A stretch of 37,098 nucleotides of DNA from NCBI GenBank assembly GCA_015067435.1, contig SVMM01000025.1, positions 1 through 37,098 on the forward strand, written 5' to 3'. Below the pieces are notes generated by a model. That model did not search any database and was not told where the DNA came from. It worked only from the letters and a program-made list of their open reading frames with translations. The number at the start of each line of letters is the position of its first letter. The stretch's first letter is position 1. The translations under genes and the position numbers were made by a program. Positions 654 to 30,769 of the stretch are shown piece after piece. This stretch comes from Oscillospiraceae bacterium. Its GTDB lineage: Bacteria; Bacillota; Clostridia; Oscillospirales; Oscillospiraceae.

Positions 654-2430
654 TTGCGTCGTCCTCAAAATCGACGAGCGACGGGTCGACGGGCGTCGCG
701 CCCATAACGGTGAACATGAACTCGTTGATCTTGTCGCGCATGGCGCGGCGGGACACGGTGCGCGGGTCCATCAGATCGTGCTCGATCCAGATCATCTTGT
801 AGTTCTTCTGACGCGCCTGCTCGTCCAGAATGCCCTGCAGCGTCGCCATGTTCTTGCACGCGACGTTCTGGTACATGAGGATGAGGTCGATCTTCCAGAT
901 CTCGCACTGGCGCCACAGCTCGTTGACGACGTTGTGGTAGCCGCCGTTGGTGTGGCGGCGCATGACCATGCGCTCGTAGAGGCGGGCGAGGTCCTGCAGC
1001 GCAAGCTCCTTATCCTCGGTCTCCAGCGGGCGGGTAAAGTTGAGACTCTCCATCTCCACCAGCACATCCACGCCCCAGCAGTTCGCGATCCAGTTGGAGA
1101 GGTTGGCGTAGTAATGCGCGGGGCACGACCACACGATCGCGCGGTACTTCATCTTGCCGCGCCAAGCCTCTTCGCGCTTCTCGTACGCGCGGAGCATGAT
1201 CTTGTTGACCTTCTCGAAGGTCTTCATCACGCGCGTGTCGGCGCCGCCGTCCATCTCATAGTTCCACTTGCGGAACAGCTCGTAGCACGGGCCGATGATC
1301 TGCGGGTACGGGGTCTGGTTGACCTCCCACTTTTGCAGCTCGAAGCTGGTCTCGCGGTTGAAGCGCTTCATCTGCGTGAAGTAGGCGTCCCAGTTCCAGC
1401 GCGCGCCGGTGGTCTCCTCGATGAACTTGATGCAGTGCTTGATGTCCTCCGCCGCGTCCTCGACGGTCTCCTCATACTCGTAGCGCACGGGGAAGGTCAG
1501 GTGGAACACCGGAAGATCCGGGAAGCGCCGCGACATATACTCCGACGCCATGGTCGAGCCGTCGCAGGGCATGGAACTCGAAATAAAGCACGCGCCCATG
1601 TGCGGCAGCGCGTCGGTGACGATGGCGCCGCACTCGCTCGACGGCACTGGGCAGGTGTCCGCCGGCAGGCCGAAGCTCTCGATCGCGTCGATGTACGGAA
1701 CACACGTAAGCTGGTCGACCTCGGAGACGAGGAACACGGGCAGCAGCTGGTACGGGATGCCGAGAAGATCCGGGAAGCCCGCCATGATCTGGCCCATGGT
1801 CATCTCGTCGAAGAGCACGACCTTCTTGTTCAGCTCCGTGGCGTTGCCGTTCTTCGCGTCGCACTTGGCGAGGAAGACCAGATTTTCCGCCACATAGCGG
1901 AAGATGTCATAGATCATCAGGTGGCTCATGCGCAGCGCGCTGCCGCGCTGGCCGAGGGTGTTCTTGTCCATGAACGAGTGCGCGCAGAAGTACGAGATCA
2001 TCCAGCGGTAGTAGAGCGTCGCGTTCAGCGCGGGCACCAGATCCCTGCCGAACGTCGTGAGGAACATGCCCCACATCTTCACCCACTCATAGAAATCGTA
2101 CGCCGTGTCGTTCACGCCACGCCACTCGCGGCGCACCGTCGCCATACAGCCGGAGCGGTAGAGCTTGCCGAGCTGCTTTTCACCGTTTTTGATGAGGTCG
2201 ATGCGCTCGGCGTTCGTCATCTGCGCAAACGCCTTCGCCTCGTCCACGATGCGGTCCTTCGTCAGAGAGAGATTTTTCTTCTGACGCGCGGCAAAAGCGG
2301 CCCAGTCGGTTTCCTTAATCATTTCGCCGACGATGCCGGCGACCTCCTTGAGGTTCTGACCCTGCGCCTTCCAGTCAATGTGGTCCTTGTAGCGCCAGAA
2401 CGCGGGGTTGGGGAATTTCGCCTTAGCCAT
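646..2430 (-). CDS. 2-hydroxyacyl-CoA dehydratase / benzoyl-CoA reductase family subunit, large (594 aa)
   Basis: HgdB/BcrB/FldB-type fold with many cysteines available as 4Fe-4S ligands, for example 'DTCPVPSSECGA', 'MGACFISSSMPCDGST', 'WSCPAHYY' and 'NCWGVDV'. At 594 residues it is clearly longer than the usual ~380-440-residue subunits because of an N-terminal extension of about 150-200 residues. Start ATG 2430 has an AAAGGAGG site inside the preceding gene and overlaps its stop by 8 bases, so the two subunits are probably translationally coupled. The downstream activase supports an ATP-dependent, radical-type dehydratase or reductase. Alternatives inside the family are a benzoyl-CoA reductase-like enzyme or a double-cubane-cluster reductase. 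Family confidence is high, substrate unknown. Confidence 0.85.
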   Translation of the reverse strand: MAKAKFPNPAFWRYKDHIDWKAQGQNLKEVAGIVGEMIKETDWAAFAARQKKNLSLTKDRIVDEAKAFAQMTNAERIDLIKNGEKQLGKLYRSGCMATVRREWRGVNDTAYDFYEWVKMWGMFLTTFGRDLVPALNATLYYRWMISYFCAHSFMDKNTLGQRGSALRMSHLMIYDIFRYVAENLVFLAKCDAKNGNATELNKKVVLFDEMTMGQIMAGFPDLLGIPYQLLPVFLVSEVDQLTCVPYIDAIESFGLPADTCPVPSSECGAIVTDALPHMGACFISSSMPCDGSTMASEYMSRRFPDLPVFHLTFPVRYEYEETVEDAAEDIKHCIKFIEETTGARWNWDAYFTQMKRFNRETSFELQKWEVNQTPYPQIIGPCYELFRKWNYEMDGGADTRVMKTFEKVNKIMLRAYEKREEAWRGKMKYRAIVWSCPAHYYANLSNWIANCWGVDVLVEMESLNFTRPLETEDKELALQDLARLYERMVMRRHTNGGYHNVVNELWRQCEIWKIDLILMYQNVACKNMATLQGILDEQARQKNYKMIWIEHDLMDPRTVSRRAMRDKINEFMFTVMGATPVDPSLVDFEDDATW

Positions 2431-4542: not shown

Positions 4543-4615
4543 AAACTGAAGAGAGTATGCGCGAAAAAGTGCGCTCCGAGTGACGAAACAATCAGAATGA
4601 AAGCGAGGACAGACC

Positions 4616-6889: not shown

Positions 6890-6917
6890 GCGCCATACGC
6901 ACCATATCGCAACAAAG

Positions 6918-6945
6918 CGGAGCCTTGCCGAAAGGCAGGGCTCCG
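6918..6945 (+). terminator. Hairpin after the flavoenzyme gene
   Basis: 12-bp stem (6918-6929 / 6934-6945, one G-U pair) with a GAAA tetraloop, followed by only a short T-poor tail. It lies between the flavoenzyme stop and the peptidase ribosome binding site, so it may be a weak terminator. Confidence 0.5.
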
Positions 6946-6962
6946 TTCCGTCGGAGGTATCT

Positions 6963-8717
6963 ATGAAGCATTTCACCCGCTCCGCCGCGCTCGCGGCGGT
7001 ATGCGCCCTTGTGCTTGCCGTGCTTGCGCCCTGCGCCGCGGCGTCGCATTACGAGGCGTTCGACCACCCGGATGTCGCCTACGCCGACATGGCGTACACC
7101 GGCATCGACCTCTCAGCCGTCGATGCGTTTCTGGAGCAGTTCGCGCGCGACCCCCTTGGGAAGTACGACGAGCTCATCGCGCTGTACGACAAGCTGAGCA
7201 CGCAGTCGACGCTCGCCGAGATCGAAAGCTGCCTCCACGCCGGCGACGAGGCCGCCAGCGCCGCTTATGAGCAGGCAACGAACGATTTTACCGAGGCGTC
7301 CGACCGGATCTTTCAGGCAATCAGCGACGCGCTTGACTCCCCGCAGGGCGGCGCGCTGCGCGCGCTGATACCGGAGGACGAGGAGGACAGCTTCGTCGAT
7401 TACGAGGCGGCGAGCGAGGAGGATTTCGCCGCCGTCGCGCAGGAGGCATCTCTGGTGCAGCAATACTACCTGCTGCCCGACGACGACAATTTTGCGGACG
7501 CCGCCGCCGGGATCTATCTCAAGCTCGCCGCGCTCCGCCGCGCGGAGGCGCAGGAGGCGGGCTACGACAGCTTCGCGGAATACGCCTACGAAACGACCTA
7601 TGCGCGCGAGTATGTTCCGGAGGACGCGCAACAGCTGGAAAGCGTGGTCAAGTCCCGCATCGCTCCGCTCTACGTGAAATGCATGATCGCCCTCTCGGGC
7701 TGTGACCTTCCATGGAACGACGAAGCCGTGCCGGACGAGGCGACGATCATCGACACGATCGCAGCGCACATCGGCGACGTTTCGCCGGAGCTGAACGAGG
7801 CGATGGACTTCCTGCTGCGCAACCGCCTGTACCGCATCGGCAGCGGCGATGACCTGCAGGACATGGGCTTCACCGTTTCGCTGCCCTCCTACCGCTCCGC
7901 CTATCTGTTCAACAAGGTCGTCACGCGCTATGACGCGTTCGAGTCCACCGTGCACGAGTTCGGCCACTTCAACGCCGCCTACCACGACCCCACGCCCATG
8001 CTGTTCCAATACTCCAACATCGACGTCAGCGAGATCCAGTCGCAGGGGCTTGAGCTGCTGTTCATTCCAAGCTTGCAGGGCATCCTCGCGGACGAGACGG
8101 ACGAGGCGCAGCGCAACGCGGTCACGCTCTACGTCGTCACGAATATCCTCTCCAGCGTCGTGGATGGCTGCATGTACGACGAGTTCGAGCAGGCGGTCTA
8201 CGCCGACCCGGACATGACCGTGGAGCGTCTGCATCAGCTGGAAGCAGACCTCACCGCGGAATACGGGCTCGACGAGATCTACGAAGCCGGCGTCTACTGG
8301 CCCTACATCACGCATCTGTTCGAGCAGCCCTTCTACTACATCTCCTACGCCGCCTCCGCCCTGCCGTCGCTGGACATCTGGCTTCAGTCGCTGGACGACC
8401 GCGCCGCGGCGGTCGACACCTACCTGAACGTCTCCGCCGTGCGCACGGGCGAGTGGTTCCTCGACGTGCTGGAGGACAACGGCCTGTGCGACGTCACCGT
8501 GGAGGGCGACGTTCGCCGCGTCGCCGACGCGCTGGAGGCAAGGCTCGACCCACTGATGGAAAACCTGCCCGCCTCGACGCTGGGCATCGTTCTGTTTCTT
8601 CTTGTCTGTCTCGCGGTCGTCGCGCTGATCGTCGTCGTCATCGTGATCCTCGTGCGCCGCGGGAAGAAAAAGCGCCGCGAGCGCGCGGCGCGGCAGGAGC
8701 CCCCCACGCTTGGCTGA
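6963..8717 (+). CDS. Secreted, membrane-anchored M3-like zinc oligopeptidase (584 aa)
   Basis: An N-terminal signal peptide (basic 'MKHFTR', hydrophobic 'AALAAVCALVLAVLA', possible AxA cleavage near residue 27) is followed by a long helical acidic domain. The gluzincin motif 'VHEFGHFNAAYHDP' (about residue 325) carries the HExxH zinc ligands and catalytic Glu, and 'EIQSQGLELLF' some 25 residues later provides the third ligand. A C-terminal hydrophobic segment 'IVLFLLVCLAVVALIVVV' ends in a Lys/Arg-rich tail, so the catalytic domain would face outward. The fold resembles M3 oligoendopeptidase F, which is normally cytosolic, so the secreted, tethered form is notable. ATG 6963 is chosen for GGAGGT four bases upstream. 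It is followed by the L,D-transpeptidase gene, likely in one transcript. Confidence 0.75.
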   Translation: MKHFTRSAALAAVCALVLAVLAPCAAASHYEAFDHPDVAYADMAYTGIDLSAVDAFLEQFARDPLGKYDELIALYDKLSTQSTLAEIESCLHAGDEAASAAYEQATNDFTEASDRIFQAISDALDSPQGGALRALIPEDEEDSFVDYEAASEEDFAAVAQEASLVQQYYLLPDDDNFADAAAGIYLKLAALRRAEAQEAGYDSFAEYAYETTYAREYVPEDAQQLESVVKSRIAPLYVKCMIALSGCDLPWNDEAVPDEATIIDTIAAHIGDVSPELNEAMDFLLRNRLYRIGSGDDLQDMGFTVSLPSYRSAYLFNKVVTRYDAFESTVHEFGHFNAAYHDPTPMLFQYSNIDVSEIQSQGLELLFIPSLQGILADETDEAQRNAVTLYVVTNILSSVVDGCMYDEFEQAVYADPDMTVERLHQLEADLTAEYGLDEIYEAGVYWPYITHLFEQPFYYISYAASALPSLDIWLQSLDDRAAAVDTYLNVSAVRTGEWFLDVLEDNGLCDVTVEGDVRRVADALEARLDPLMENLPASTLGIVLFLLVCLAVVALIVVVIVILVRRGKKKRRERAARQEPPTLG

Positions 8718-13751: not shown

Positions 13752-13765
13752 CGGTTTTTTCGATT
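13752..13765. repeat. Left 14-bp direct repeat (attL-like)
   Basis: CGGTTTTTTCGATT, identical to 24864-24877. It lies 50 bases past the transposase stop and abuts the rpmG promoter's A-tracts, as expected for the left junction of a site-specifically integrated element. Confidence 0.75.
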
Positions 13766-13815
13766 CGCAAAATGCAAGGGTAAACGTGAAGATTATGTAT
13801 GAAGATTTTTAATCG

Positions 13816-14889
13816 TTATATCGCAACCGATAAATTGATTCCCTCCCTGCAAAGCGCGTCCTGCCACATCCTCTCCGGCGTGTTTCCGCCCAGCCTCCGG
13901 CGCGCGTAGCCGTTCATCCATCGCGCCGCCTCGATGAAGTCCTCGTCCGGTATGGCGTCGAAGTCCGCGCCCTTCGGCAGCTTGCGCCGCAGCATCCCGT
14001 TCTGGTTCTCGTTGGTGCCGCGCTCGTAGCTGCTGTACGGATGCGTGTAGTACACCTTCGTCCTCTTCGTGCCGTCCTTCGACGTTTCCATGCCGGCGCA
14101 GTCCTGAAACTCGCTGCCGTTGTCGAAGGTGATGCTCTTGAACACGCGTGGGAAGTCCGCGCCCAGCTTCGCCTCCAGCTCGTCCAGCGCCTTCACGACC
14201 TCCGCCTTCGTGCAGGCCGCGAGCGGCAGCACGATTTCCTTTGTCATCACGCGCTCCGTCAGCGTCAGCGCGCACTTGCGGTTCGTCTTCTTGCCCTTCA
14301 CCGTGTCGCCCTCCCAGTGGAACGGCTCGCTGCGGTCATTGATATTCTCCGGTCTCTTCTCGATGCTCTCGCCCTTCGGCACATGCGCGTTCGCTGTTAC
14401 CTTCGTGTACTTCTGCTTCGACTTGCCCTTGCGCGGCAGCGCCTTCATGGTGAGATGCAGGAACACGTCGTGATGAATCCAGTTGTACAGCGTCTTCTCG
14501 CACACCTTCGTCTGGAACTCCATTCCCTCCAGCTCGATGTCGCGCAGGATGGTGTACGGGCTTTTGTTCTCGTCGATGGCCTTGTGCTCCACATAGTCGT
14601 GGAAGGCGTAGTCGCTGCCCAGCTTAATCGGACGGCCCTTGCCGCGTTTGTTCTCCTCGTACTGCGCCTGCGCCTTGTCCGCGCTGTACCTCTCCTCCGT
14701 CGTCAGGTCAGAATTGAGATGCGTATAGGTGACGTTCGGACGGTGAAGCTCGCGCCATACCGTCTGATATGTCGTGCGCAGCGCGTCCGCGATTTCCTGA
14801 ATCTTCGCGCCTTCGTTCAGCATCTTCTCAATTTTTCTCCTGTCGTTGTGTGTCAGGTGGTGGAAGTAGCCGCAAACCTTCTTCGCCAT
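13816..14889 (-). CDS. IS30-family DDE transposase (357 aa)
   Basis: An N-terminal HTH ('LTHNDRRKIEKMLNEGAKIQ', 'IADALRTTYQTVWRELHR') is followed by a DDE catalytic domain: 'HWEGDTVKG' (first Asp), 'SITFDNGSEF' (second Asp) and 'YERGTNENQNGMLRRKLPKG' (Glu). All three catalytic residues are present and the length is typical, so it should be active. ATG 14889 has AAGGAGG eight bases upstream. It sits at the element's edge next to the repressor gene, the position of an integrase in a prophage. Either it is a plain IS that landed there or it is the element's own integration enzyme; no convincing short IS terminal repeats were found right around the gene. Confidence 0.92.
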   Translation of the reverse strand: MAKKVCGYFHHLTHNDRRKIEKMLNEGAKIQEIADALRTTYQTVWRELHRPNVTYTHLNSDLTTEERYSADKAQAQYEENKRGKGRPIKLGSDYAFHDYVEHKAIDENKSPYTILRDIELEGMEFQTKVCEKTLYNWIHHDVFLHLTMKALPRKGKSKQKYTKVTANAHVPKGESIEKRPENINDRSEPFHWEGDTVKGKKTNRKCALTLTERVMTKEIVLPLAACTKAEVVKALDELEAKLGADFPRVFKSITFDNGSEFQDCAGMETSKDGTKRTKVYYTHPYSSYERGTNENQNGMLRRKLPKGADFDAIPDEDFIEAARWMNGYARRRLGGNTPERMWQDALCREGINLSVAI

Positions 14890-14923
14890 CCTCTTCGCCT
14901 CCTTCTGTTTTGTGTGGATTTTT

Positions 14924-14953
14924 ATTCTAAAGGCGATTATCTCGATTTGTCAA
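14924..14953 (-). promoter_or_regulatory. Promoter of the IS30-type transposase
   Basis: -35 TTGACA (14948-14953), 18-base spacer, -10 TAGAAT (14924-14929) on the minus strand, downstream of the xre terminator, so the transposase is independently transcribed. Confidence 0.7.
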
Positions 14954-14959
14954 GATAGC

Positions 14960-14988
14960 AAAACCGCCCGCCTCCACCGGCGAGCGGT
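14960..14988 (-). terminator. Intrinsic terminator of the xre gene
   Basis: 10-bp GC-rich stem with one G-U pair (14963-14972 / 14979-14988) followed on the minus strand by TTTT. It begins at the last base of the xre stop codon. Confidence 0.8.
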
Positions 14989-15230
14989 CAATCTTTATCC
15001 AGCAGCCATGCCGTCGTCACGTTCAGCGCCTCCGCCAGATACGGCAGCTCGAAGTCCGGCACGATGCGCTTGCCGATTTCAATGCGGCTGACAGCCAGCT
15101 GCGACAGCGGCAGGCCCGTGACCTGCAACCGTGCCGCCAGCTCTTCCTGCGTCAGTTCCGCCCGCAGTCTTGCCTCGCGCACACGCTCGCCGCAGCGGTT
15201 CAGTTTCCCGTCCGGCAGGAATATCTTCAC
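14988..15230 (-). CDS. XRE-family HTH repressor (80 aa)
   Basis: Compact Cro/CI-type helix-turn-helix: 'CGERVREARLRAELTQEELA' and 'LSQLAVSRIEIGKRIVPDFE', ending 'LAEALNVTTAWLLDKD'. This is the common short phage and ICE repressor of Clostridia, whose members begin with a hydrophobic-'LPDGK'-like segment. GTG 15230 is preferred because GGGAGG lies eight bases upstream; a longer frame from 15275 has no such site. It likely binds the palindrome at 15287-15303 and controls both its own promoter and the divergent one. Confidence 0.85.
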   Translation of the reverse strand: MKIFLPDGKLNRCGERVREARLRAELTQEELAARLQVTGLPLSQLAVSRIEIGKRIVPDFELPYLAEALNVTTAWLLDKD

Positions 15231-15262
15231 GCGCCCCGCCTCCCTTAATCGTCTTTTGCATA

Positions 15263-15321
15263 TTGACGATACCACTTTCCCGTGCTATCTTTAGTCTAAA
15301 GATGAATAAGACGTAAGTAAA
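15263..15321. promoter_or_regulatory. Divergent overlapping promoters with shared operator palindrome
   Basis: The plus promoter has -35 TTGACG (15263-15268) and -10 TATCTT (15286-15291), spacer 17. The minus promoter for xre has -35 TTTACT (15316-15321) and -10 TAGACT (15293-15298), spacer 17. A 17-bp palindrome, ATCTTTAG-T-CTAAAGAT at 15287-15303, covers both -10 boxes. This is a classic layout for a lysogeny-type switch; the XRE protein is the obvious binder, though binding is inferred. Confidence 0.75.
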
Positions 15322-15348
15322 CGTAACTTTGAAAGGAAGGTGCTTTCC

Positions 15349-15729
15349 GTGGATTATGTCGGCGTTGTCATTTTGGCGTACCTCGCCTATGTGGTTTTTG
15401 ATATTCTGTTCCTTAAGCCGCGCCGCGAACGCGCAGTTTTTCGTGAGCGCGTCTATGGTTTTGCCTCCTGCGTTGCATCCTGCGATGTCGGTGGCGGCAT
15501 ATACCTTGGCGACTTCATGGACCTTGTTGATGCAAACCTCTCTCGCGTCGAAAAACCGCAGTCCTCCGACGACCCTTTGTATGGTAAGTCTGCGCCGGAG
15601 TACGCCGTTTTATTGCTTGAATTCTATGCCGAGCAGGAAGGCTTGCTTCGCCTGCGCAGTTATTGTTCCGAGCTTCAGCGCGGCATCGAGCGCCTGTGTG
15701 TCTACAGCAACGCCCGCAGCTTGGTTTGA
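15349..15729 (+). CDS. Small membrane-anchored protein of unknown function (126 aa)
   Basis: GTG start eight bases after GGAAGG; a GTG nine bases earlier abuts the site and is less likely. One N-terminal membrane helix ('VGVVILAYLAYVVFDILFL') is followed by a basic stretch 'KPRRERAVFRERVYGF', then a soluble domain with several Cys ('ASCVASCDVGG') and 'YAEQEGLLRLRSYCSELQ'. I do not recognise a family. It is the first gene behind the repressor-controlled plus promoter, so it would be made when the repressor is released. A phage conversion or exclusion protein is possible but unproven. Confidence 0.6.
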   Translation: MDYVGVVILAYLAYVVFDILFLKPRRERAVFRERVYGFASCVASCDVGGGIYLGDFMDLVDANLSRVEKPQSSDDPLYGKSAPEYAVLLLEFYAEQEGLLRLRSYCSELQRGIERLCVYSNARSLV

Positions 15730-15755
15730 CTTCCCACCTTCTCGCGTGCTATACT
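15726..15755 (+). promoter_or_regulatory. Promoter of the 82-aa membrane protein gene
   Basis: -35 TTGACT (15726-15731), 18-base spacer, -10 TATACT (15750-15755), just 24 bases ahead of the start codon. It overlaps the end of the preceding gene, so the 82-aa gene has autonomous expression. Confidence 0.7.
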
Positions 15756-15778
15756 CGCCATCGAAAGGTGGTGCTTCT

Positions 15779-16027
15779 ATGGCCGTTCCGTATCTGGTCG
15801 TCCTCGTCTCCTCGTTCCTCGCCGTCTTCACAAGTCAAAGTCGCGGCTCCTATTTTCAATCGCCGACCGTGAAATTTGCGTTTGTCGTTCTGCATCTCCT
15901 GTGCGTCATCGGCGCAATCGTCTATCTCTGCATCCACTTCAGTTTGTGGCATATTCTCTTTGTCCCGTGCTGTGCTCTCGTCTTTGACTGGATATTTGCC
16001 CTCGTACTTCACTCTCTGTTCAAATAA
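15779..16027 (+). CDS. Small integral membrane protein of unknown function (82 aa)
   Basis: ATG 15779 follows GAAAGGTGG by seven bases. About three hydrophobic segments ('YLVVLVSSFLAVFT', 'FAFVVLHLLCVIGAIVYLCI' and 'HILFVPCCALVFDWIFALVL') occupy nearly the whole chain. No family recognised. With its own promoter and a strong terminator directly behind it, it is a self-contained unit transcribed against the rest of the element, as phage moron genes are. Superinfection exclusion or a small toxin are guesses only. Confidence 0.65.
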   Translation: MAVPYLVVLVSSFLAVFTSQSRGSYFQSPTVKFAFVVLHLLCVIGAIVYLCIHFSLWHILFVPCCALVFDWIFALVLHSLFK

Positions 16028-16042
16028 AGCTCTCACACAGCA

Positions 16043-16074
16043 GGACCGCACCGGCTCCCCGGTGCGGTCCTTTT
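16043..16074 (+). terminator. Strong intrinsic terminator after the 82-aa gene
   Basis: Perfect 12-bp GC-rich stem (16043-16054 / 16059-16070) with a 4-base loop and TTTTCTGTT behind it, four bases before the convergent giant gene's stop codon. Confidence 0.9.
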
Positions 16075-16077
16075 CTG

Positions 16078-19000
16078 TTACCCTCTCGGAAGCATGGTGT
16101 TTCCGCCGCGCGTGTTCCACGGTGCCTTGTCGATTGTGCTCTGCGAATAGCCCGCGTCCAGCGCCAGCGCGTCCTTCTGCGCCAGCGTCAGCTGCAATCC
16201 GTCGATGTAGTCGAACACCTTGTCCCTCTTGGAGTTCTGGATGACCTTGCCGTCTTTGTCGTGGTCTGCCGTGAAGCTGTTGACCTCGTTATGGTAGCGC
16301 ACCGCGTCGTCAAGGTCGATGCCCACCGCCGTCAGGTTGTCCACCTTTGTCGAAGACTTCGCCTCGTAGTCGTCGAACAGCGCTCCCTTTGCCTTCTCCG
16401 CCGCGTAGTCGTACACCTTGTCGATCATCTTGGCCTGCTCCTCCGGCGTCGCCTGCCGGTAGATGCCGGAGCTCGTCAGATCGTCCAGCGCGCGCTCGAC
16501 GTTCGCGCTCCACACCAGGTCATAGGTCTGTCGCTGGTATGCGTTGAGATTCCTGTCCTCTCCGTTGACCGTGATGCTGCTCGGCGTGTCGGGAGGAATG
16601 GACGTTTTCTGTCCCGCCTCGTAGAGCTCGGCCAGGGCCGCCGCCGTCTCGTCGCTAATTTCGACGCCGCGCGCTTTCAGGATGTGGTCCGCGCGCGTTG
16701 CCAGCGCGTCGCCGCTCAGCCCTTTCAGGTCGTTCTTCGTCGGCGTGTCGAAGATGTCCTCCATGCCGGCGTACAACTCCGGGGAGATCGTCTGCACGGC
16801 TCCCAGGATGTACTTCTCGACGTTCTGCACCGGAAGTCCGCCCAGGTACATAGCCAGCTTCTCGGCCAGCTCCTTCGCCGCGCCGGAGTAGTCTCCCGCG
16901 TTCCTGCGGAAATATTCGCCCAGGTCTCCGCCGTTGGCCAGAATGTTCGCGCCTTCGGTGATGATCTTCTGGATCGTTCCGGCCGCGCCGCCCGCCGCGT
17001 CAATGATGTCTTGGTCGTACTCGATGCGGTATCCCTCTGCATAGTCGCTGCTCCACCGCTCCTCCTGCATCCACCCCGGCGTCCACGCCAGCCACTTGTA
17101 CCCGTCCTCCGCCGCGCGGCGCAGCAGGTCCTTCAGAACATACTCGTGGTATGTCTTCTGGAACGGCGCATCCGGCGTTCTTCCGACTTCCCTGCTCAAC
17201 TCTGTGAATCGGTTGAAGTCGTCAATGAACTCTTCCGCGAATTTCCGCTCGCCCTCTGTCAGTGTTGCCCCGTGCTCACGCTCTCGTTCTGTGATTTCAT
17301 AATACCGGTCTTGCCTTTTTGCGAGTGTGTCTTCAAGCCTCTTTGCTTCCTCCCGCTTTTCGGCAATTTCCTTTGCTCCGCCCTGCTGATAGCCGCTCTT
17401 CTGTCCCGCGTTGTGCCAGTCGCTTTGAATCTCGTCGATGAACAGCACCGGCTCGCCGCCGTGCTTGAAGTCCTGCACGCGCGCGTGCGCCAGCACGCCG
17501 CGCTCGCCCCAGTGCGCTTGCATCGCGTCGTTTGTGTAGTCGCTCCCCGGCATCTTGAACAGCAGCTCCCGGTAGTCCTCGCCGCCGTCCAGCTTGTATT
17601 GGTTCCAGTGCGTCTTCGACGTGTTCACGCTGCGCGCCCTGCCACGGTCAGCGATGTCGTCCAGTCTCCAGTCAAGGCTCCGCAGCTCGTCCGGAATGTC
17701 GCGGTACAGCTCGCGCTCCACCGGCGTCAGCGTGTTGATGCCCGTGAAGCCACGGATGCCGCCGTGCCGGTCGATGATGGCGCGCGTCAGCGCGTTTGCT
17801 GTGTTGTCCGCCAGAATGATTTCGTCCGGCACGATTTCGTTGTAGGCTTCCTTCCACAGCTCCGACACGCGGTCGTACAGTCGAGACTTTTCCTCCGTGA
17901 TGCGGTCAAGCTCCGCCGTCTCCTCCGGCGTGTACTTCGTGCGGCCCTTCTCGTCGCGGATTTCCTTGTCCTCGATGTCCAACCGGTTCTCACGCAGGAA
18001 GTCCAGCAGCTCGTCTTTGTCCACGGACCGCTTGCCCTCCAGAAACTGCTCGATGCCGCTCCACTTGATTTCCTCGTCCTTCACGCCGTGCCCCTTCAGG
18101 TACGGCATGACGGACGCCGCACCCATCTTCTGCCCTCTGAAGTTTTCTACTTCGCGCTCCAGCTTCGAGTAGAAGTAGCCCTCGCGTCTCCTGCGGTCCA
18201 TCTCCTGCGTCACGTCCTCCGTGAACGCCTCGTCCACGTCGTCGATGCTGAATCGCGCGTCCGGGATGCTGTTGATAAGCTCGCGCCGCTGGTCCTCGTT
18301 CCCGGCCTCGTAGGGGATGACCTGCTGGAAGGTATCGCGCGCCCACTTCCTGATGTCCTCCGGCGCATCCGAAGGCTCCAGCAGCGCCAGCGCCTCGCTG
18401 AACGGCACCACGCGCTTCGGCTTCGCCTCGAAGTAGCCCGTCGGGATTTCCGCCGCGTGGTTGTACATCTCCACGATGTCCTCCGCCGTGCCGTACTTGA
18501 TGGCGTAGCCCTCGCTCTGGAAGGCGCGCTGCACCGCCTCCGGCGTGCGTTTGCCCTGCGCCGCTTCCATCAGGATGTCGCCGATGATTTCGTTCTCCTC
18601 GAACGTGTTGTCCGCGTGGTGTTTGGTCGTGCTTCTGATTTCATCGACCACCGCTTCGATTTCCTTGTCCAGCGCCTCGAAGCGCGCCGCGTGCTCCTCC
18701 TCGCTCTCTTGGCGCAGTCTCCCTTCCTCTGCGTGCATCTGGCCCACGTTTCTGAAGTCCGTCGTCGCCACCGCGTGCATCCCCGGCGCGCCAAACCCGA
18801 AGTAGCCCGCGCCTCTGTCGTTTGCAAGGTTCATCGCCCGCACGATGTTCTCCGCCGTCACCGGCCAATGCAGCTGTTTGAAGCTCCTGCGGTTGCCGCG
18901 CGTGTCGAATATCTCCTTGCCGTTCCAGATTCCGCGCTCTCCCAGCAGGCCGTCCAGCTCGCCGCGAATCCACGCCTGCACATCCTTGTCGTTCACGCGC

Positions 19001-22000
19001 CTGCTCAATGCGTCGCTTGTCGCCAGCACGTCGTTCTCGCCCTTGGTCTGTCCGCCGTCCTCGTACATCGCCCACGCATCCTTGGCAAAGTCCTCGATGG
19101 TGAAGATGCTGACGTTTTTTGCCATCGTGTCGTCGATGCGTTTCTCGCGCTGCTCCGCCATCTCTTCCGGCGTCCATCCCTTGCGCTGCGCCATCCGTTG
19201 CAGGTAGCCCTCGTCCCGGTTCGCGTAGTATTCGCGGATGATTTGCTGGATGGTGTCGTACTCCTTGCCCAGCGCCTCTTTCGTGCTCTTGCCTTCCCAC
19301 AGGTCCGCGCTGATTTGCGCCAGTCTCTGCGGTCCCACTTGGTCTAGGAACATCCGAAGGTAGTCGTTGCCGTACTTGTTCCACTCCTTCGCCCGCTTGA
19401 CAGGCTCCAGCGTCTCGCCCTGCGCCGCGAGGTATGCCGCGCGCACCGCGTCCTCGCTTGCCAGCCGCTCCGCGATGTCGTCCAGCGTCATCTCCGTTTC
19501 GTCTCCGAGGAACATTTCCAGCGTGCTCGACTTGCTGAAGATGCCGTCCGCGATTTTGTCGCTCAACTCCTTGATGCGGTCGTCGATGCGCCACATCGCC
19601 TCGCTCTTGACTTCGCTCTCCACGCGCGCGTTGCTGTGCGTCGGCGTCCATGCGTCGCTTCCGTACACCTTGTTCCGCCGGTCCGCTTCCGGGTCGATGG
19701 TGCTGCGCGGGAACACGATGGAATACGGGCCGTACATCGCGTGCCCTTGGTCCGCCCGCACGACCGCGATGGAAGGCGAGGGGATAGCGCCCAGCTCCAT
19801 CATCCGGCGCATCTTGTCGTCGTCAAGGTTGTGCTGCGCCACCAGCGTCTTCGTCATCTCCACCGGCTCGTCCAGTGAAAAGCGGTCTTTGGCCTCGATG
19901 TTCCCGGCGTCGTTGTCGGAAACATCCGCCTCCGCCGCCGTCGGAAGCTCCGTCTTCGGCACGTCATCGAAAATCCCGCGCTTGACTTCCGGCTCGCCTT
20001 CTGCTATTCTGTCTGCGGAGCGGTCGGTTCCTGTTCGCCCGATTACGTCATCGGCATCGTTCAGGAAACTGGCCGCTCTGTTTTCGTCAAACACATGAAG
20101 CGTTCCGCCGTTCCTTCTCTGGTTGTCCATCCACGCCTGCGGGTTATCCAGCCCGTAGGCGCTTTTTATGCGATTGACGCGCTCGTTGTCCAGCATCACG
20201 TTTTTGTGTATTCCGATAAGCAGCGGCTTTCCGTCCGCATCCACGTCCTTCGTGAGTATGCCCACTTCGTTTCCGTTCTCCCACGCAAGAATCGGGTCTT
20301 CCATCAGCTCCGTCAGCCGCGTCATCGCGCGGTTTGGCACGCTGTGCTTCTGGTCTCTCGACTTTTTGTAGTCGGATTGCGAAAGCACAAGCGGCAGCTC
20401 CTCCAGTCCAGCATCTCCCAATACGCGCGGCGTGCTTCCATAGTAGAACTCGTCGTACCTCGTCATCCTGCCAGCTCTGTATTCTTTCAGCTGTTCGCGG
20501 ATTCCCATATCTCTCGTGTTGTTGATGCTGAATCTCTCCGGCGGTCCGGTCATCCTGTCCGTCGCCGCCGCGTTCTGCGTGTTCGGATAGTGTCCGCGCT
20601 CCGTCATCACGCCGCGCACGCTGTCGTGGAACTGGTCCGCGTGATAGCCGAACCAATTCAGCGCGCCGTTCGCGTCGCCGAAAACTTCGTCCAGCGCATA
20701 GTTGATGGCCTCTTCCACCTGCTCCGGCGTCGCGTCCTCCGGCAGGTTGATGATGCCGCGCAGCTTTTGCAGGTACTTCTCGTAAACCGTCCGCAGCTCC
20801 TCCGGGCTGTATTCCTGCTCGATGCGCTCGCGCACGCTCTCTCGCAGTCCGGGGTCCCTGTCTGCCGCGTCGTGGTAGTATTCGTGCCCCCACAGCTGCT
20901 CCGGCGACGCGCGCAGGTTGTCCGCCTGAATTGCCACTTTGCCCGGTGCCCAAATCGCGCGGGCATATCCCGTGGTTCCATTCTCTGCCACTTCCTGCCT
21001 TCCGAGGAAGAACGTCACATCCAGCCCTGTCTCTTCCTTGATTGTCTGCCCCAGCGTGCGCAGGCCGTCGTCCCACATCTCCTCCGGCATCACCTGCACG
21101 CTCTTTGTCTCCGTTGCCTTCTCGAACCCGTAGTCCTTCAGGCTCTCTTTCGGAAGGTTCTTTCCAGCATTTTGTCGAGCACTTGCTGCTCTGCTCTGTT
21201 CAGCGGCGCTTCGTGGTCCGCCCTCCGCCATGCTTCCATCTTGTCTTCCGGCACCCACACCAGCGTCCCGTCTTCCGTCTCCATCGTATAGCGCGTTTGC
21301 CCCTGCGCCGTCGGAAGCTCCCGCCGTTGCTCCGATGCTGTTGGCAGCATCACCATATTGTCCGCCATTGTCCAGCCCTCCGTTCATCATTGTGTTGTTC
21401 TGCGGTTCCGCGAAGATGTCTTTCTGCGCCGCCCGCGTTTTCTCCAGCGCGCTCTGTGCCAGCGCGTTCACGCCCGCTTCGATTTCATTCTCCGGCGCGC
21501 CCGCCTGTCTCGCCGCCGTCACGAAGTTTGTTATCTCTTCCAGCGCCCCGCTCTGCCGGATGCTCGTCGCATACTCCTTCGCCTGTTCGGGCATATATCT
21601 TCCTTGCTCGTCCACGAAGGTCCGCTGTGCCCACTCGTTCATCATTTGGCGTGCTTCCTTTTGTGCTGGCAGTCCCGGCTTCTCTTGTGCCGTCGGTTCC
21701 TGCGCGCTTGCAGTCGGAAGCTCTGCGCCCTGCTCCGCAGTCGGTGCCATGATGCGCGGTCTTTCGTTTTCCGCCGTCGGATTCTGCGTCATCGGCGTAA
21801 CTTCCGGTGTTCCTCCCCCGGATGTCGCGCTCGTCATCCCTGTCGCCTGTGCCGTCGGTGCCCCTTGCTGTTGCGCCGCCTGCCCAGCTATGTTTCCGCC
21901 CGTCGGCACCAGTCCCGTCGGCATCGGTCCGATGCTTGCCGCGTTCGTCGCCGTCGTGTACGGTTCCATCTCCGCCTTCATCGCCGACAGGAACCCGCGC

Positions 22001-23700
22001 GCGGCGTCGATTTCTTTCTGCGCGCCCACGATGTACAGGTCGTCCAGCCTTGTGTTCATGCCGTCCACTGCGTCCATCACGCTCTGCGCGCCGCGCGCCT
22101 TGTCCGCCGTGCTCACTCCCGGATTGTCCAGTATGCTCTTCGCGTATTCGTACCGGCGCTTCAGCTCGTCCAGCTCCTGCTGCATCGCCGCTTTGTTTTG
22201 CCCCGACGTTGCTGCGATGCTCACGAAGCGCGACAACGCTCCGAAGACGAAGCCGTTCAGCTCCGCCTGCCCGATTGCTGTCCAGTCCGGCGTGTAGTGC
22301 TCGTCCGTGATGGCCTTGCCCAGCTCGCTCATCGCCGTTTCGCCGGTCGCATAGCTTAAACCGGAAATTCCGCCCAGCCCCACGTTCGGCAGGATGAGGT
22401 TCTGGATGTCCTGTCCCTTGAACTCCGCAATGTGTGCCAGCGCCAGCGCCTCTCTGTCGTGGCTCGTTACTGTGTGCATCGGCTCTCGGACGTCCAGCGG
22501 GTTTCCGTTTCCGTAATACTCGGTCAGCTGCGCCGCCACCATCGCGTACCTGTTCGATGCGTCCACCGTGTTAATTGGCGCGTCCAGCCCTGACGCCCGC
22601 ACGTTCTCCGTCTGCTCTGTGTGATATTGGATAAGCTGCGCCATCGACATCAGCTGTCCGCCTCCGCCGCCCGTGCGAATTGTGTGCATCGGCTGGTCCG
22701 CAGGCGCTCCCACCGATGCGTTCGTGTTGCTGAAGGTTATCGGTGCCATCAGCGGCTCGCACACGTTGTGCTTCACGGTCGAAACCACCGTCGGCACAGG
22801 CTCGTCTACGTCGTGTACGCGCGGTGCCTGCCCCTTCCGCTCCCCGTACCCCACCGGCACAATGAACGGCTTGCCGCTCCGTATGGTGAATTTATCGACG
22901 CCGCGTATCACGCGCCGCTGCGTGTTTCTTGCCAGTGGTCGCACGGCCTTCAGTCCGTACTTCGCCTCGATTTCTTCCTTCGTCTCAAAGATGGAAGGGC
23001 ACGGCAGGCTCCAGTCGATGATTTCCGCCGCGCTCCTCCACGGCTTGCATCTCCCGCTCCGCACTTCCTCGCTGTCTCGCGGCGCGTGCGTCCGCTCCGG
23101 CCATACGATTTGCTTCCCGTCGCACCGCGCGATGATAACCAGGCGCTTGCGCGTCGTCGGCGCGCCATAGTCCGCCGCCGTCAGGATGCGCCATTCCACG
23201 GCATATCCAAGATTTTCCAGCTGTGTCCGCCACTTCTGAAACGTCTCCCCGGATTTGCGCTTCATCGGCTTTCCTTTGCGCACCGGCCCCCACGTCAGGA
23301 ACTCCTCCACGTTCTCCGTAATCATCAGGTCAGGCCGCACCAGCGCCGCCCAGCGCAGCTCTATCCACGCCAGCCCCCGGATGTTCCGGTCCACCAGCGC
23401 CGCGCCCTTCGCTTTGCTGAAGTGCTTGCAGTCCGGGCTGAACCACGCCAGCGCAACGTGCCGTCCTCTGCATACCTCCACCGGGTCCACATCCCACACG
23501 CTCGCTTGCAGGTGTTCCGTGTGCGGATGGTTTGTCTTGTGCATCAGAATTGCCGCAGCGTCGTGATTGATGGCGATGTTTACGATTCGTCCCGTCGCCA
23601 GCTCTATCCCGGTTGAAGCGCCTCCGCCGCCTGCGAAGTTGTCCGTGATGATTGGCTCCAGCAGGCTTTCCTGTGCGAACAGGCTCCGCGTCCTCTTCAT
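16078..23700 (-). CDS. Giant fusion: truncated cytosine-5 DNA methyltransferase joined to a phage polyvalent protein (2540 aa)
   Basis: ATG 23700 lies seven bases after AAGGAGG; an ATG 30 bases earlier is worse. Residues 20-190 are a C5-methyltransferase: 'FAGGGGASTGIELATG' (SAM site), 'FSPDCKHFSKAKG' (Cys91 nucleophile), 'ITENVEEF' and 'DYGAPTTRKRLVIIA'. The target-recognition repeats run to about residue 430, then stop at 'HIAEFKGQD'. The late motifs (LQGFP-type and the final G-N-x-V) are missing. From 'NLILPNVGLGGISG' on, the protein is phage-like: a Pro/Gln/Ala-rich linker (~590-820), a zincin-like 'HEYYHDAADRDPG' (~938), a nuclease-like domain with 'LGDAGLEELPLVLSQSDY' (~1087), 'AIPSPSIAVVRADQGH' (~1300), 'FIDEIQSDWHNAG' (~2090) and the usual C-terminus 'LTLAQKDALALDAGYSQST'. 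I infer an in-frame deletion fusion. Confidence 0.8.
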   Translation of the reverse strand: MKRTRSLFAQESLLEPIITDNFAGGGGASTGIELATGRIVNIAINHDAAAILMHKTNHPHTEHLQASVWDVDPVEVCRGRHVALAWFSPDCKHFSKAKGAALVDRNIRGLAWIELRWAALVRPDLMITENVEEFLTWGPVRKGKPMKRKSGETFQKWRTQLENLGYAVEWRILTAADYGAPTTRKRLVIIARCDGKQIVWPERTHAPRDSEEVRSGRCKPWRSAAEIIDWSLPCPSIFETKEEIEAKYGLKAVRPLARNTQRRVIRGVDKFTIRSGKPFIVPVGYGERKGQAPRVHDVDEPVPTVVSTVKHNVCEPLMAPITFSNTNASVGAPADQPMHTIRTGGGGGQLMSMAQLIQYHTEQTENVRASGLDAPINTVDASNRYAMVAAQLTEYYGNGNPLDVREPMHTVTSHDREALALAHIAEFKGQDIQNLILPNVGLGGISGLSYATGETAMSELGKAITDEHYTPDWTAIGQAELNGFVFGALSRFVSIAATSGQNKAAMQQELDELKRRYEYAKSILDNPGVSTADKARGAQSVMDAVDGMNTRLDDLYIVGAQKEIDAARGFLSAMKAEMEPYTTATNAASIGPMPTGLVPTGGNIAGQAAQQQGAPTAQATGMTSATSGGGTPEVTPMTQNPTAENERPRIMAPTAEQGAELPTASAQEPTAQEKPGLPAQKEARQMMNEWAQRTFVDEQGRYMPEQAKEYATSIRQSGALEEITNFVTAARQAGAPENEIEAGVNALAQSALEKTRAAQKDIFAEPQNNTMMNGGLDNGGQYGDAANSIGATAGASDGAGANALYDGDGRRDAGVGAGRQDGSMAEGGPRSAAEQSRAASARQNAGKNLPKESLKDYGFEKATETKSVQVMPEEMWDDGLRTLGQTIKEETGLDVTFFLGRQEVAENGTTGYARAIWAPGKVAIQADNLRASPEQLWGHEYYHDAADRDPGLRESVRERIEQEYSPEELRTVYEKYLQKLRGIINLPEDATPEQVEEAINYALDEVFGDANGALNWFGYHADQFHDSVRGVMTERGHYPNTQNAAATDRMTGPPERFSINNTRDMGIREQLKEYRAGRMTRYDEFYYGSTPRVLGDAGLEELPLVLSQSDYKKSRDQKHSVPNRAMTRLTELMEDPILAWENGNEVGILTKDVDADGKPLLIGIHKNVMLDNERVNRIKSAYGLDNPQAWMDNQRRNGGTLHVFDENRAASFLNDADDVIGRTGTDRSADRIAEGEPEVKRGIFDDVPKTELPTAAEADVSDNDAGNIEAKDRFSLDEPVEMTKTLVAQHNLDDDKMRRMMELGAIPSPSIAVVRADQGHAMYGPYSIVFPRSTIDPEADRRNKVYGSDAWTPTHSNARVESEVKSEAMWRIDDRIKELSDKIADGIFSKSSTLEMFLGDETEMTLDDIAERLASEDAVRAAYLAAQGETLEPVKRAKEWNKYGNDYLRMFLDQVGPQRLAQISADLWEGKSTKEALGKEYDTIQQIIREYYANRDEGYLQRMAQRKGWTPEEMAEQREKRIDDTMAKNVSIFTIEDFAKDAWAMYEDGGQTKGENDVLATSDALSRRVNDKDVQAWIRGELDGLLGERGIWNGKEIFDTRGNRRSFKQLHWPVTAENIVRAMNLANDRGAGYFGFGAPGMHAVATTDFRNVGQMHAEEGRLRQESEEEHAARFEALDKEIEAVVDEIRSTTKHHADNTFEENEIIGDILMEAAQGKRTPEAVQRAFQSEGYAIKYGTAEDIVEMYNHAAEIPTGYFEAKPKRVVPFSEALALLEPSDAPEDIRKWARDTFQQVIPYEAGNEDQRRELINSIPDARFSIDDVDEAFTEDVTQEMDRRRREGYFYSKLEREVENFRGQKMGAASVMPYLKGHGVKDEEIKWSGIEQFLEGKRSVDKDELLDFLRENRLDIEDKEIRDEKGRTKYTPEETAELDRITEEKSRLYDRVSELWKEAYNEIVPDEIILADNTANALTRAIIDRHGGIRGFTGINTLTPVERELYRDIPDELRSLDWRLDDIADRGRARSVNTSKTHWNQYKLDGGEDYRELLFKMPGSDYTNDAMQAHWGERGVLAHARVQDFKHGGEPVLFIDEIQSDWHNAGQKSGYQQGGAKEIAEKREEAKRLEDTLAKRQDRYYEITEREREHGATLTEGERKFAEEFIDDFNRFTELSREVGRTPDAPFQKTYHEYVLKDLLRRAAEDGYKWLAWTPGWMQEERWSSDYAEGYRIEYDQDIIDAAGGAAGTIQKIITEGANILANGGDLGEYFRRNAGDYSGAAKELAEKLAMYLGGLPVQNVEKYILGAVQTISPELYAGMEDIFDTPTKNDLKGLSGDALATRADHILKARGVEISDETAAALAELYEAGQKTSIPPDTPSSITVNGEDRNLNAYQRQTYDLVWSANVERALDDLTSSGIYRQATPEEQAKMIDKVYDYAAEKAKGALFDDYEAKSSTKVDNLTAVGIDLDDAVRYHNEVNSFTADHDKDGKVIQNSKRDKVFDYIDGLQLTLAQKDALALDAGYSQSTIDKAPWNTRGGNTMLPRG

Positions 23701-23804
23701 CTCCGTGCCTCCTTCGGCGTGTCCAGCCATACGATGAACCGCATCAGCAGGGAAGAGCGCCAGCCCACTCCCGCCACGGTAAAGAACAATGTCCAGCCTG
23801 TCAT
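23697..23804 (-). CDS. Small ORF coupled to the methyltransferase start (35 aa)
   Basis: GAGGAGG lies five bases before the ATG at 23804. The peptide has a short hydrophobic N-terminus ('GWTLFFTVAGVGW') and a basic tail. Its TGA overlaps the methyltransferase ATG as ATGA, so its main role may be translational coupling. No family recognised. Confidence 0.45.
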   Translation of the reverse strand: MTGWTLFFTVAGVGWRSSLLMRFIVWLDTPKEARR

Positions 23805-23814
23805 GTCGTCCTCC

Positions 23815-24240
23815 TCACCACGGCAGCGCCGCGTCCTCCGGCAGCAGCGCGAACCCGAAAACGCTCACGCTCTCCTCCTCGTCCGGCGTCTCGTCCGGCA
23901 CACTCGGCATCTTCCCGCCGTGCGTGCCGACAGCACGTTCCTCTGCTGTCGGCAGGTAATTCTTGCCGAACTCCAGCCGGAAGTCCTCGATGTCCCAGCC
24001 GAAGCGGTCCATCGCCAGCTTCTGTCCGTACTCGTGCAGGCGCTGCATCGTCTCGCTGTTCCTGTGCACCGCCTCCGGCCCGAAGATGTGGCAGTCGTGA
24101 TGGCACAGCCAGACGACCAGCCCCAGCTTCTCGCTCTTCTCGCGGAAGGCTCCGCCGAAGATGTGGTGCTTGTCCAGCACGTCCGCGCATCCGTTGCGCC
24201 CGCACAGCCAGCACGCTCTTTCCGCTTCATACCGCTTCAT
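23815..24240 (-). CDS. HNH-like zinc-binding phage protein (141 aa)
   Basis: 'CWLCGRNGCADVLDKHHIFGG' gives a CxxC pair and the His-His of an HNH/beta-beta-alpha metal site, followed by 'LVVWLCHHDCHIFGPEAVH' with further Cys/His ligands. The second half ('AMDRFGWDIEDFRLEFGKNYL') is a segment I associate with small proteins in phages of gut Firmicutes. The C-terminal ~45 residues are acidic and unstructured. ATG 24240 has AAAGGTG seven bases upstream. Likely role: a DNA-binding or nicking HNH protein; catalytic ability is uncertain. Confidence 0.7.
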   Translation of the reverse strand: MKRYEAERACWLCGRNGCADVLDKHHIFGGAFREKSEKLGLVVWLCHHDCHIFGPEAVHRNSETMQRLHEYGQKLAMDRFGWDIEDFRLEFGKNYLPTAEERAVGTHGGKMPSVPDETPDEEESVSVFGFALLPEDAALPW

Positions 24241-24532
24241 CTTCAAACACCTTTGACCTTCCGCGCCCGTTGTTCACGCGCCCGTCGTCCTCGCGCAGCT
24301 TGCATCCCTTGCGCAGCTGCGCCTCCGCTGCTACCGTCTCGCCCTTCTTCGGGTCGTACACGAAGCGCCCGTTGCGAACCTCGTCCGTGCGTCCGCGCCG
24401 CAGCTCCCTGTATATGGTCTGCTGCGTCGTACCCAGCGCCGCCGCGATGGTCTCGACGTTCGCGTCCTCGCGGTTGTACATCCTGTCGATGACCGTGCGC
24501 AGCCCGTTCGTCATCCTGACCGGTCTCTTCAC
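24227..24532 (-). CDS. Small helix-turn-helix protein (101 aa)
   Basis: GTG 24532 has AAGGGGGG seven bases upstream. A clear HTH, 'VETIAAALGTTQQTIYRELRRGR', is followed by 'GRFVYDPKKGETVAAEAQLRKG' and a basic tail. The HTH resembles the DNA-binding N-terminus of IS30-type transposases, including the one in this element ('IADALRTTYQTVWRELHR'), but no catalytic domain follows. Probably a phage regulator. Its end overlaps the HNH-like gene's start by 14 bases. Confidence 0.7.
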   Translation of the reverse strand: MKRPVRMTNGLRTVIDRMYNREDANVETIAAALGTTQQTIYRELRRGRTDEVRNGRFVYDPKKGETVAAEAQLRKGCKLREDDGRVNNGRGRSKVFEDEAV

Positions 24533-24546
24533 GTTCTCGCCCCCCT

Positions 24547-24780
24547 TCAGTTTTCCGTTGCGCTCTCGATGTAGCCGACAGCCTCTTCCAAGCTGTCTAT
24601 TGCCGATTCGATGCTGCTCACCGCTTCTTCCGCCGCCTCGTACCTCTCGCTTCCTTGCAGGTTCTCCGGCATATTGTCCATGTACTCCTGCTCCTCGTCC
24701 CGAAGGCTTTCCAGCTCATCTCGCAGCTCCTCGATTTTCCCCGATATCATTTCGAGCGTGTTTCTTCTTGCTTTATTCAT
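24547..24780 (-). CDS. Small acidic coiled-coil phage protein (77 aa)
   Basis: ATG 24780 lies eight bases after AAGGAG. The whole chain is an acidic helical repeat ('GKIEELRDELESLRDEEQEY', 'AAEEAVSSIESAIDSLEEAV'), with 'MDNMPENLQGSERYE' in the middle. This design is widespread among small proteins of phages in gut Clostridia, with no function known to me. It is the first gene of the element's minus-strand operon and lies at the right end. Confidence 0.7.
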   Translation of the reverse strand: MNKARRNTLEMISGKIEELRDELESLRDEEQEYMDNMPENLQGSERYEAAEEAVSSIESAIDSLEEAVGYIESATEN

Positions 24781-24804
24781 GGGCGTTTCTCCTTTTTGGC
24801 ATAA

Positions 24805-24853
24805 AAAATCAACCGTAAGAAAACGTACTTCACGTTTCTTTACGATTGATTTT
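24805..24853 (-). repeat. Long imperfect inverted repeat at the right end of the element
   Basis: 22-base arms (24805-24826 / 24832-24853) match at 19 of 22 positions around a 5-base centre. On the minus strand it is followed by TTT after the T-rich arm, so it could terminate transcripts coming from rnc. It also contains AAACGTGAAG (24828-24837 complement), which recurs inverted at 13782-13791 near the other end, so a recombinase-binding role is possible. Confidence 0.55.
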
Positions 24854-24863
24854 ACAGGTAGCC

Positions 24864-24877
24864 CGGTTTTTTCGATT
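24864..24877. repeat. Right 14-bp direct repeat (attR-like)
   Basis: Identical to 13752-13765. It lies between the element's terminal inverted repeat and the rnc terminator, and is followed by a T7 tract that would have continued the phased A/T tracts of the intact site. Confidence 0.75.
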
Positions 24878-24938: not shown

Positions 24939-25625
24939 CTACACGTCGCCGCCGAGCTTTTCCAGCGCGTCCCGCGCCGCCATCTGCTCGGCCTCCTTCT
25001 TGCTGCGTCCGCTGCCGCTGCCCGCGACCTCGTCGCCCAGCAGAACCGAGACGCTGAACGTCTTGGCGTGATCGGGCCCCGTCTCGCCGGTGAGGCGGTA
25101 GACGACGGTCCTGCCCGGCTTGCGCTGCACGAGCTCCTGCAGCGCGGTCTTGTAGTCGAGGCGCTTTTCCGCTGCGCGCACCTCGGTCGCGTCGTCGAGC
25201 AGCAGCCGGTGGATCAGCGCGCTCGCCGCCTCGATCCCGCCGTCGAGATACACCGCGGCGATCACCGCCTCGGTGGCGTCGGCAAGGATGGACGCGCGCT
25301 CGCGCCCGCCGCCCGCCTCCTCGCCGTGGCCGAGGCAGAGGTATCTGCCCAGATCGATGCGCTGGGCGACCTCGTAGAGGCTCTCCTCGCACACGAGGCG
25401 CGCGCGGATGCGCGTCAGCTCGCCCTCGGGCGAATCCGGGCGGCGCCGGAAGAGGAACTCCGCGGTCACGAATCCGAGCACGCTGTCGCCCAGAAACTCC
25501 AGACGCTCGTTGCTCGTCGCCTCGGCGCCGCGGTGCTCGTTGGCATAGGAGCTGTGGCGCAGCGCCTCGCGCAGAAGCTCCTGATTCTCGAACCGGTAGC
25601 CCAGCGCGTCCTCCAATGCCCGCAT
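24939..25625 (-). CDS. rnc: Ribonuclease III (228 aa)
   Basis: Catalytic endonuclease domain with the signature 'NERLEFLGDSVLGFVTAEFL', 'HSSYANEH' and the second metal-binding region 'ILADATEAVIAAVYLDGG'. It is followed by a double-stranded RNA-binding domain ending 'GSGSGRSKKEAEQMAARDALEKL'. It processes rRNA precursors and structured mRNAs. In many Firmicutes smc and ftsY follow; here the next thing is the terminator and then the integrated element. Confidence 0.97.
   Translation of the reverse strand: MRALEDALGYRFENQELLREALRHSSYANEHRGAEATSNERLEFLGDSVLGFVTAEFLFRRRPDSPEGELTRIRARLVCEESLYEVAQRIDLGRYLCLGHGEEAGGGRERASILADATEAVIAAVYLDGGIEAASALIHRLLLDDATEVRAAEKRLDYKTALQELVQRKPGRTVVYRLTGETGPDHAKTFSVSVLLGDEVAGSGSGRSKKEAEQMAARDALEKLGGDV

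Positions 25626-28447: not shown

Positions 28448-28451
<4 letters not shown>
27117..28451 (-). CDS. trmFO: Methylenetetrahydrofolate-tRNA (uracil-54-C5)-methyltransferase TrmFO (444 aa)
   Basis: FAD-binding GidA-like protein: 'ATVIGAGLAGSECAWQLARRG' at the N-terminus, then 'HHTDDFAELVCSNSLRSDQL', a TrmFO hallmark with the active-site Cys, and 'GCMPVEVMARRG' and 'GQMTGVEGYVESSASG'. It makes ribothymidine-54 in tRNA with folate as carbon donor. The start overlaps the topA stop as ATGA (28448-28451), so it is translationally coupled to topA, a common pairing in Firmicutes. Confidence 0.97.

Positions 28452-30769
<2,318 letters not shown>

Follow-up and report, generated by a model that had tools for sequence, protein, structure and literature searches.

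A 2550-codon methyltransferase-polyvalent protein fusion in a remnant prophage, very probably left by two recent microhomology-mediated deletions

The fused reading frame and its domains

The window analysed here is the whole stretch of DNA presented above, 37,098 bp in length, and constitutes an entire contig (G000:C3) of a 3.34 Mb genome assembled in 36 contigs and 96% complete (G000). It includes a very long ORF, which the first-pass annotation described as an in-frame fusion of a DNA methyltransferase to a phage polyvalent protein. This is borne out almost to the base: the frame is 2550 codons long from its first ATG, and 2540 from the second (residue 11, nt 23700), where that annotation had placed the start. 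The ORF is located in a remnant prophage, whose features are listed in Table 1.

Table 1. Window positions of the fused ORF, its parts and the surrounding prophage features
Feature	Position	Strand	Remarks
Fused ORF	16078-23730	-	2550 aa from first ATG; methyltransferase residues 1-441, polyvalent-type residues 442-2550
Truncated DNA cytosine-5 methyltransferase	22408..23730	-	N-terminal 441 of the intact gene's 591 residues, counted from the same ATG; late motifs lost
3' part of polyvalent-type phage gene	16078..22407	-	HEYYH, MuF_C, PBECR5; 561 first codons lost at A, 1248 more at B
Deletion junction A	22405..22407	-	3-bp microhomology ATC, codon 442; 27,832 bp missing relative to IMGVR_UViG_3300019371_000012
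Deletion junction B	17005..17010	-	6-bp microhomology GACATC; 3,744 bp = 1248 codons missing relative to IMGVR_UViG_3300019371_000012 (L040) and G013:C38 (L021)
Remnant prophage	13766..24863		11,098 bp; right end is the end of the IMG/VR contig match, itself the contig's end
Left copy of 14-bp target duplication	13752..13765		CGGTTTTTTCGATT; repeat comparison
Right copy of 14-bp target duplication	24864..24877		CGGTTTTTTCGATT; repeat comparison
IS30-family transposase	13816..14889	-	Intact frame; its 3' end is 50 bp inward of the left prophage boundary

Profile matches were obtained for both halves. The Pfam family DNA_methylase matches residues 30–208 (3.5e-17), and PHROG methyltransferase families cover the ORF up to residue 435. 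In the second half, MuF_C (residues 1122–1219, Pfam, 7.2e-13) and the PBECR5 nuclease (residues 1282–1491, Pfam, 1.1e-51) both score above the gathering score, and the long phage family phrog_22978 begins at residue 1050. Zincin-like and nuclease-like domains had been proposed for this region. A zincin-type HExxH motif, HEYYH, is found at residue 949; no Pfam zincin model matches the ORF at E 0.01. Several conflict-type domains (MuF_C, PBECR5 and HExxH) are combined here in one very long phage protein, as in the phage polyvalent proteins described in PMC5512222; by its domains this half would belong to that class, for which packaging and injection are predicted. It differs from those proteins in being cut by 561 N-terminal and 1248 internal codons, and in being fused to a truncated methyltransferase.

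An intact counterpart and two deletions

I scanned IMG/VR and a genome collection for near-identical DNA, and located the same phage on the IMG/VR contig IMGVR_UViG_3300019371_000012 (41,865 bp; loci L040 and L041). The common DNA is 99.9–100% identical and in the same gene order, with 2 mismatches in 2,436 bp for window 14575–17010 (99.9%), none in 5,403 bp for 17005–22407 (100%) and 2 in 2,459 bp for 22405–24863 (99.9%), which amounts to four differences in about 10.3 kb. Its transposase is the same as that of the window over residues 1–105, where the contig ends. Unlike in the window, the methyltransferase and polyvalent genes are full length and separate on this contig. A search for prophages with both genes intact had been proposed as a check of the deletion model, and this phage contig, in which neither gene is broken, supports the model.

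Two segments of the intact contig, hereafter stretches A and B, are missing at junctions A and B, respectively. Junction A lies between residues 441 and 442 of the fused protein; its nucleotide position agrees with the range 22405–22415 given previously, whereas the residue had been placed at about 430 in the 2540-residue numbering. Junction B, inside the polyvalent half, was missed in the first-pass annotation, as were both ends of the prophage and its integration gene of IS30 type. The intact polyvalent frame is 3918 codons long (TTG start as listed), and neither Pfam nor PHROG profiles give a methylase match in it. The codons before junction A and those that remain after it, once the loss at B is subtracted, add up to the observed frame (441 + 2109 = 2550).

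Deletion A took the methyltransferase late motifs, the terminase, portal, internal virion protein and tail fibre genes, and 561 polyvalent codons. These genes are present in stretch A of the intact contig, where matches were found in L041 for the terminase large subunit (Pfam, 4.6e-47) and the portal (phrog_156, 2.9e-21), and in L040 for the internal virion protein (phrog_511, 3.8e-72) and the tail fibre (phrog_5668, 1e-13), this content being read from about 20 of its 27.8 kb, with about 7.8 kb outside the analysed loci. The missing DNA had been expected to hold terminase, portal and capsid genes; the first two are indeed there, but capsid genes were not identified in the analysed ~20 kb of the 27.8-kb stretch, in which they are presumed to lie.

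The methyltransferase has lost 150 residues from its C-terminal end. The intact frame is 601 codons long (GTG start as listed), and the earlier remark that the fusion has no late motifs is confirmed by comparison with it. A weak DNMT1 alignment (residues 527–578 of 601, 3.9 bits) falls beyond the break, in a late stretch that I take to be motifs IX and X. The expression GN[AS]V.PP (GNAVCPP-type) matches the intact frame and is without a match in the methyltransferase part of the fusion, though it is not universal, being present in 20 of 46 relatives' frames. Pfam and PHROG matches also reach further in the intact protein, with phrog_116 and phrog_23072 extending to residues 580 and 586, against 362 and 435 in the fusion. 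A functional C5 DNA methyltransferase has motifs through IX and X, which the methyltransferase part of the fused ORF does not; because these late motifs are gone, this half should be inactive.

Insertion site, transposase and related phages

The prophage is inserted between rnc (24939–25625) and a gene that reads by eye as rpmG, upstream of nusG. The identity of the window to L021 ends at 13764. Between 60-base flanks, the left one ending at 13761, the longest repeat is 10 bases, a length reached in 1 of 500 mononucleotide shuffles; the full repeat is 14. When the flanks were joined on one repeat copy, G000 matched this construct in two parts (1–465 and 452–888), while eight of the 17 other genus genomes (G002, G003, G004, G006, G007, G009, G010, G014) matched it in one piece, over 885 or more of its 888 bases. 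G001 is a ninth, crossing the empty site with bases 163–888. The two sides are on one contig in G008, 208 bp apart, and on different contigs in five genomes (G005, G011, G012, G015, G016); the joined flanks found no match in the remaining two, G013 and G017. The locus has the characteristics of a defective prophage, with recognisable ends and insertion site, and without the structural and packaging genes present in the near-identical phage.

The IS30-family transposase is the sole integration-type gene recognised in the remnant. It scores 208.7 bits against NF033563 (cut-off 80) and lies at the prophage end, and integration by this enzyme is predicted. It is 46% identical to that of the Faecalibacterium phage FP_Lagaffe (MG711461), a temperate phage for which an IS30-type integrase, acting as its integration enzyme, and flanking direct repeats have been published (PMC5883640). 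In contrast to the remnant, FP_Lagaffe is intact and makes virions, and the available part of that report mentions no such fusion. The remnant might still be mobile, because both ends and the transposase are kept. It also retains, by eye, an XRE-like repressor (14988–15275(-)), a small HTH protein similar to the N-terminal part of IS30 (24227–24532(-)) and an HNH-like protein (23815–24246(-)).

IS30-type elements mostly give duplications of 2–3 bp, with some longer exceptions. Here, immediately downstream of rnc, the target duplication that flanks the prophage and its IS30-family transposase is 14 bp long. As a side result, this locus is a clean added case of a phage combining such a transposase with a 14-bp duplication; a literature search on IS30 target duplications returned nothing evidently on topic, from which I make no claim of absence from print.

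The same phage DNA is also found in the MAG SIG461 (SVKM01000030; G013:C38), which is identical to the window at 100% over 3,247 and 1,814 bp and contains stretch B entirely (3,721/3,721 queried bases at 100%). Neither G013 nor G005 matched the stretch-A query, and G013 shows only the polyvalent side of an intact phage, on an 18.7-kb contig. The phage would have moved very recently, since two species of the genus share its DNA at 100% identity (G013:C38 and window 13764–18818), with different left flanks. In a more distant relative (G011:C99), the methyltransferase, terminase-side and polyvalent matches lie apart in the same order, over 33 kb.

The intact edges of both deletions recur among viral contigs. 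The right edge of A is found in two (IMGVR_3300019371 and IMGVR_3300021326_000062), as is the right edge of B (IMGVR_3300019371 and IMGVR_3300033463_003250), and both left edges in IMGVR_3300019371 only. Exact-match scans found the fused junctions in no viral contig of a collection from which records close to the window's genome may be absent. A 300-bp query of junction-A DNA matched only G000 among 18 genus genomes, at a sensitivity that misses diverged relatives such as G002 and G011, whose methyltransferase is at 52–62% protein identity.

A wider search gave a match to the fusion in 442 of 50,697 phage records, none of which has one place covering 80% of the query. Among the 40 matches listed, 39 cover the front only, ending at residues 407–473, and one (H6) the second half. 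The best-scoring named methyltransferase match among these, in Dulem virus 34 (PP511788; 63.6%), comes from a phage with a related transposase (46%, annotated as RNAseH protein); unlike in the window, its methyltransferase is a separate 1,737-bp gene, and terminase, portal and capsid are present. The fused frame was also absent from all 46 methyltransferase loci compared, where the longest frame is 769 codons, in a set with some duplicate loci, where the locus end truncates three of the frames.

A further phage, L045, which across a large part of the polyvalent protein has only about 71% resemblance, shares 654 bp with the window at 97.9% (L045 18479–19132, window 16357–17010), ending exactly at the edge of junction B. 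This likeness is a mosaic exchange at the 3' end of the polyvalent gene. In L045, DNA resembling the region upstream of the methyltransferase lies past a stretch resembling a transposase, as would be seen if the genome were circular or permuted.

Origin of the open frame

Both deletions keep the frame, and the ORF is open over 7.65 kb. The naive expectation is 33% per event, or 1 in 9 for two joins. The joins were however made at microhomologies in codon-biased DNA, where 15 of the 16 occurrences of GACATC in the polyvalent gene share a frame, as do all 4 in the methyltransferase. The probability of an in-frame join at A is 61% given the shared ATC (43% for any shared 3-mer), and at B 88% given GACATC (62% for any shared 6-mer), so that both joins are in frame 27–54% of the time. 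If break points are placed at random inside the two genes, the chance of a microhomology of at least 3 (A) is 0.071, and of at least 6 (B) 0.0038. As microhomology and codon bias make in-frame joins likely, selection need not be invoked. The first-pass annotation had proposed that the ORF may be selected or recent; the few differences from the intact contig support the latter, and the former is not needed. Neither selection nor function follows from the open frame, because of these odds and of the little time available for decay. More generally, an in-frame rate of 43–88% per microhomology deletion in codon-biased DNA, against the naive 33%, weakens arguments that an open frame implies selection. 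A literature search found no paper on cryptic prophages in which microhomology had fused genes in frame, which is not a claim of absence from print.

Judged from sequence comparison, the ORF very probably arose as a side effect when two microhomology-mediated deletions recently occurred in a temperate phage that carries an IS30-family transposase. The phage is inserted between rnc and the rpmG-like gene of an Oscillospiraceae-type bacterium; comparison with the intact contig shows that deletion A removed 27.8 kb, from the interior of the methyltransferase gene to the interior of the polyvalent gene, and deletion B 3.7 kb within the latter. The joined frame would have remained open since the microhomologies correspond to Ile and Asp-Ile codons, mostly in the same frame in these genes, and since there has been no time for decay yet. 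The remainder would be a truncated effector that this prophage can no longer package, because the terminase and portal genes are gone. The locus is a deletion derivative of a temperate phage, ordinary in kind and very recent, and the fused ORF is most likely a genetic scar and not a new kind of protein. It illustrates how a very large multidomain phage protein that seems novel in a genome database can result from a fresh deletion.

The fused junctions are known from one assembly (G000) alone, and it could be argued that the organism has an intact prophage and that they arose in the laboratory or computer, as a chimera of assembly, scaffolding or amplification. Amplification chimeras also use short homologies, which fits the junctions. 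However, overlaps of 3 and 6 bp would be far too short to confuse an assembler, the assembly has the two host flanks as well as the 14-bp duplication, and the deleted DNA that was searched (19.8 of 27.8 kb of stretch A, L040:1–9900 and L041:2460–12400, and 3.7 of 3.7 kb of stretch B, L040:15425–19145) is absent elsewhere in this 96% complete genome, bar three short weak matches, although an intact copy in the cell might have been expected to show there. For stretch A, one query gave two matches, of 114 bases at 70% and of about 60 bases at 77%, and the other, which does match G011 and G002, gave no match, an empty answer that is uninformative by itself; for stretch B, 29 bases at 93% were found. 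A second intact copy in G000 thus has no support, and I consider an artefactual origin improbable.

Two other explanations take the protein itself as meaningful. It could be a functional chimera maintained by selection, such as a polyvalent effector bearing a module derived from a methyltransferase, as the two in-frame joins and the open frame might suggest; polyvalent proteins with adenine methylase domains have indeed been described (PMC5512222), although where the available part of that paper names the methylase type, adenine methylases are meant. In-frame joining is nonetheless expected 27–54% of the time, four substitutions are too few for a selection test, the late motifs are missing and none of the 46 methyltransferase loci is fused, all of which make this very unlikely. 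It could also be a natural form of polyvalent protein, shared across phages, that has a methyltransferase at its N-terminus. The length of polyvalent-type proteins does vary, with open frames of 1739–4008 codons around the matches, some cut by contig ends, but the genes lie apart on the near-identical phage contig, and the intact polyvalent frame has no methylase match. The first-pass annotation had considered that many intact phages might share the full-length architecture, which neither the 442 records (at 80% cover) nor the 46 loci contain. A natural fusion is refuted for this phage by the intact contig (L040/L041), and the probability of this explanation is close to nil.

The break edges show an additional likeness. 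Both left edges read CA[AG]GACATC, in frame CA[AG] GAC ATC, and are identical at 8 of 9 positions (window 22405–22413(-) and 17005–17013(-)). Three of the four edges are GACATC and the fourth is AAAATC; all end in ATC, which the pairs share by microhomology. In a post hoc comparison, 0.08% of random same-frame edge pairs match as well as the two left edges. Simple random deletion does not predict this likeness. The deletions might be non-random, with a sequence-guided process (such as template switching or the action of a nuclease that prefers these edges) repeatedly reducing the phage to a mobile derivative of 11 kb that bears the transposase and produces a chimeric effector, but this appears highly improbable.

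Elsewhere in the window, long ORFs are open on both strands, at 646–2430(-)/613–2466(+), 4592–6976(-)/4616–6889(+) and 28448–30769(-)/28436–30808(+). Every pair has a Pfam match on one of its strands; the other strand, scanned for the middle pair, has none. Such pairs are probably the usual effect of high GC content and codon bias.
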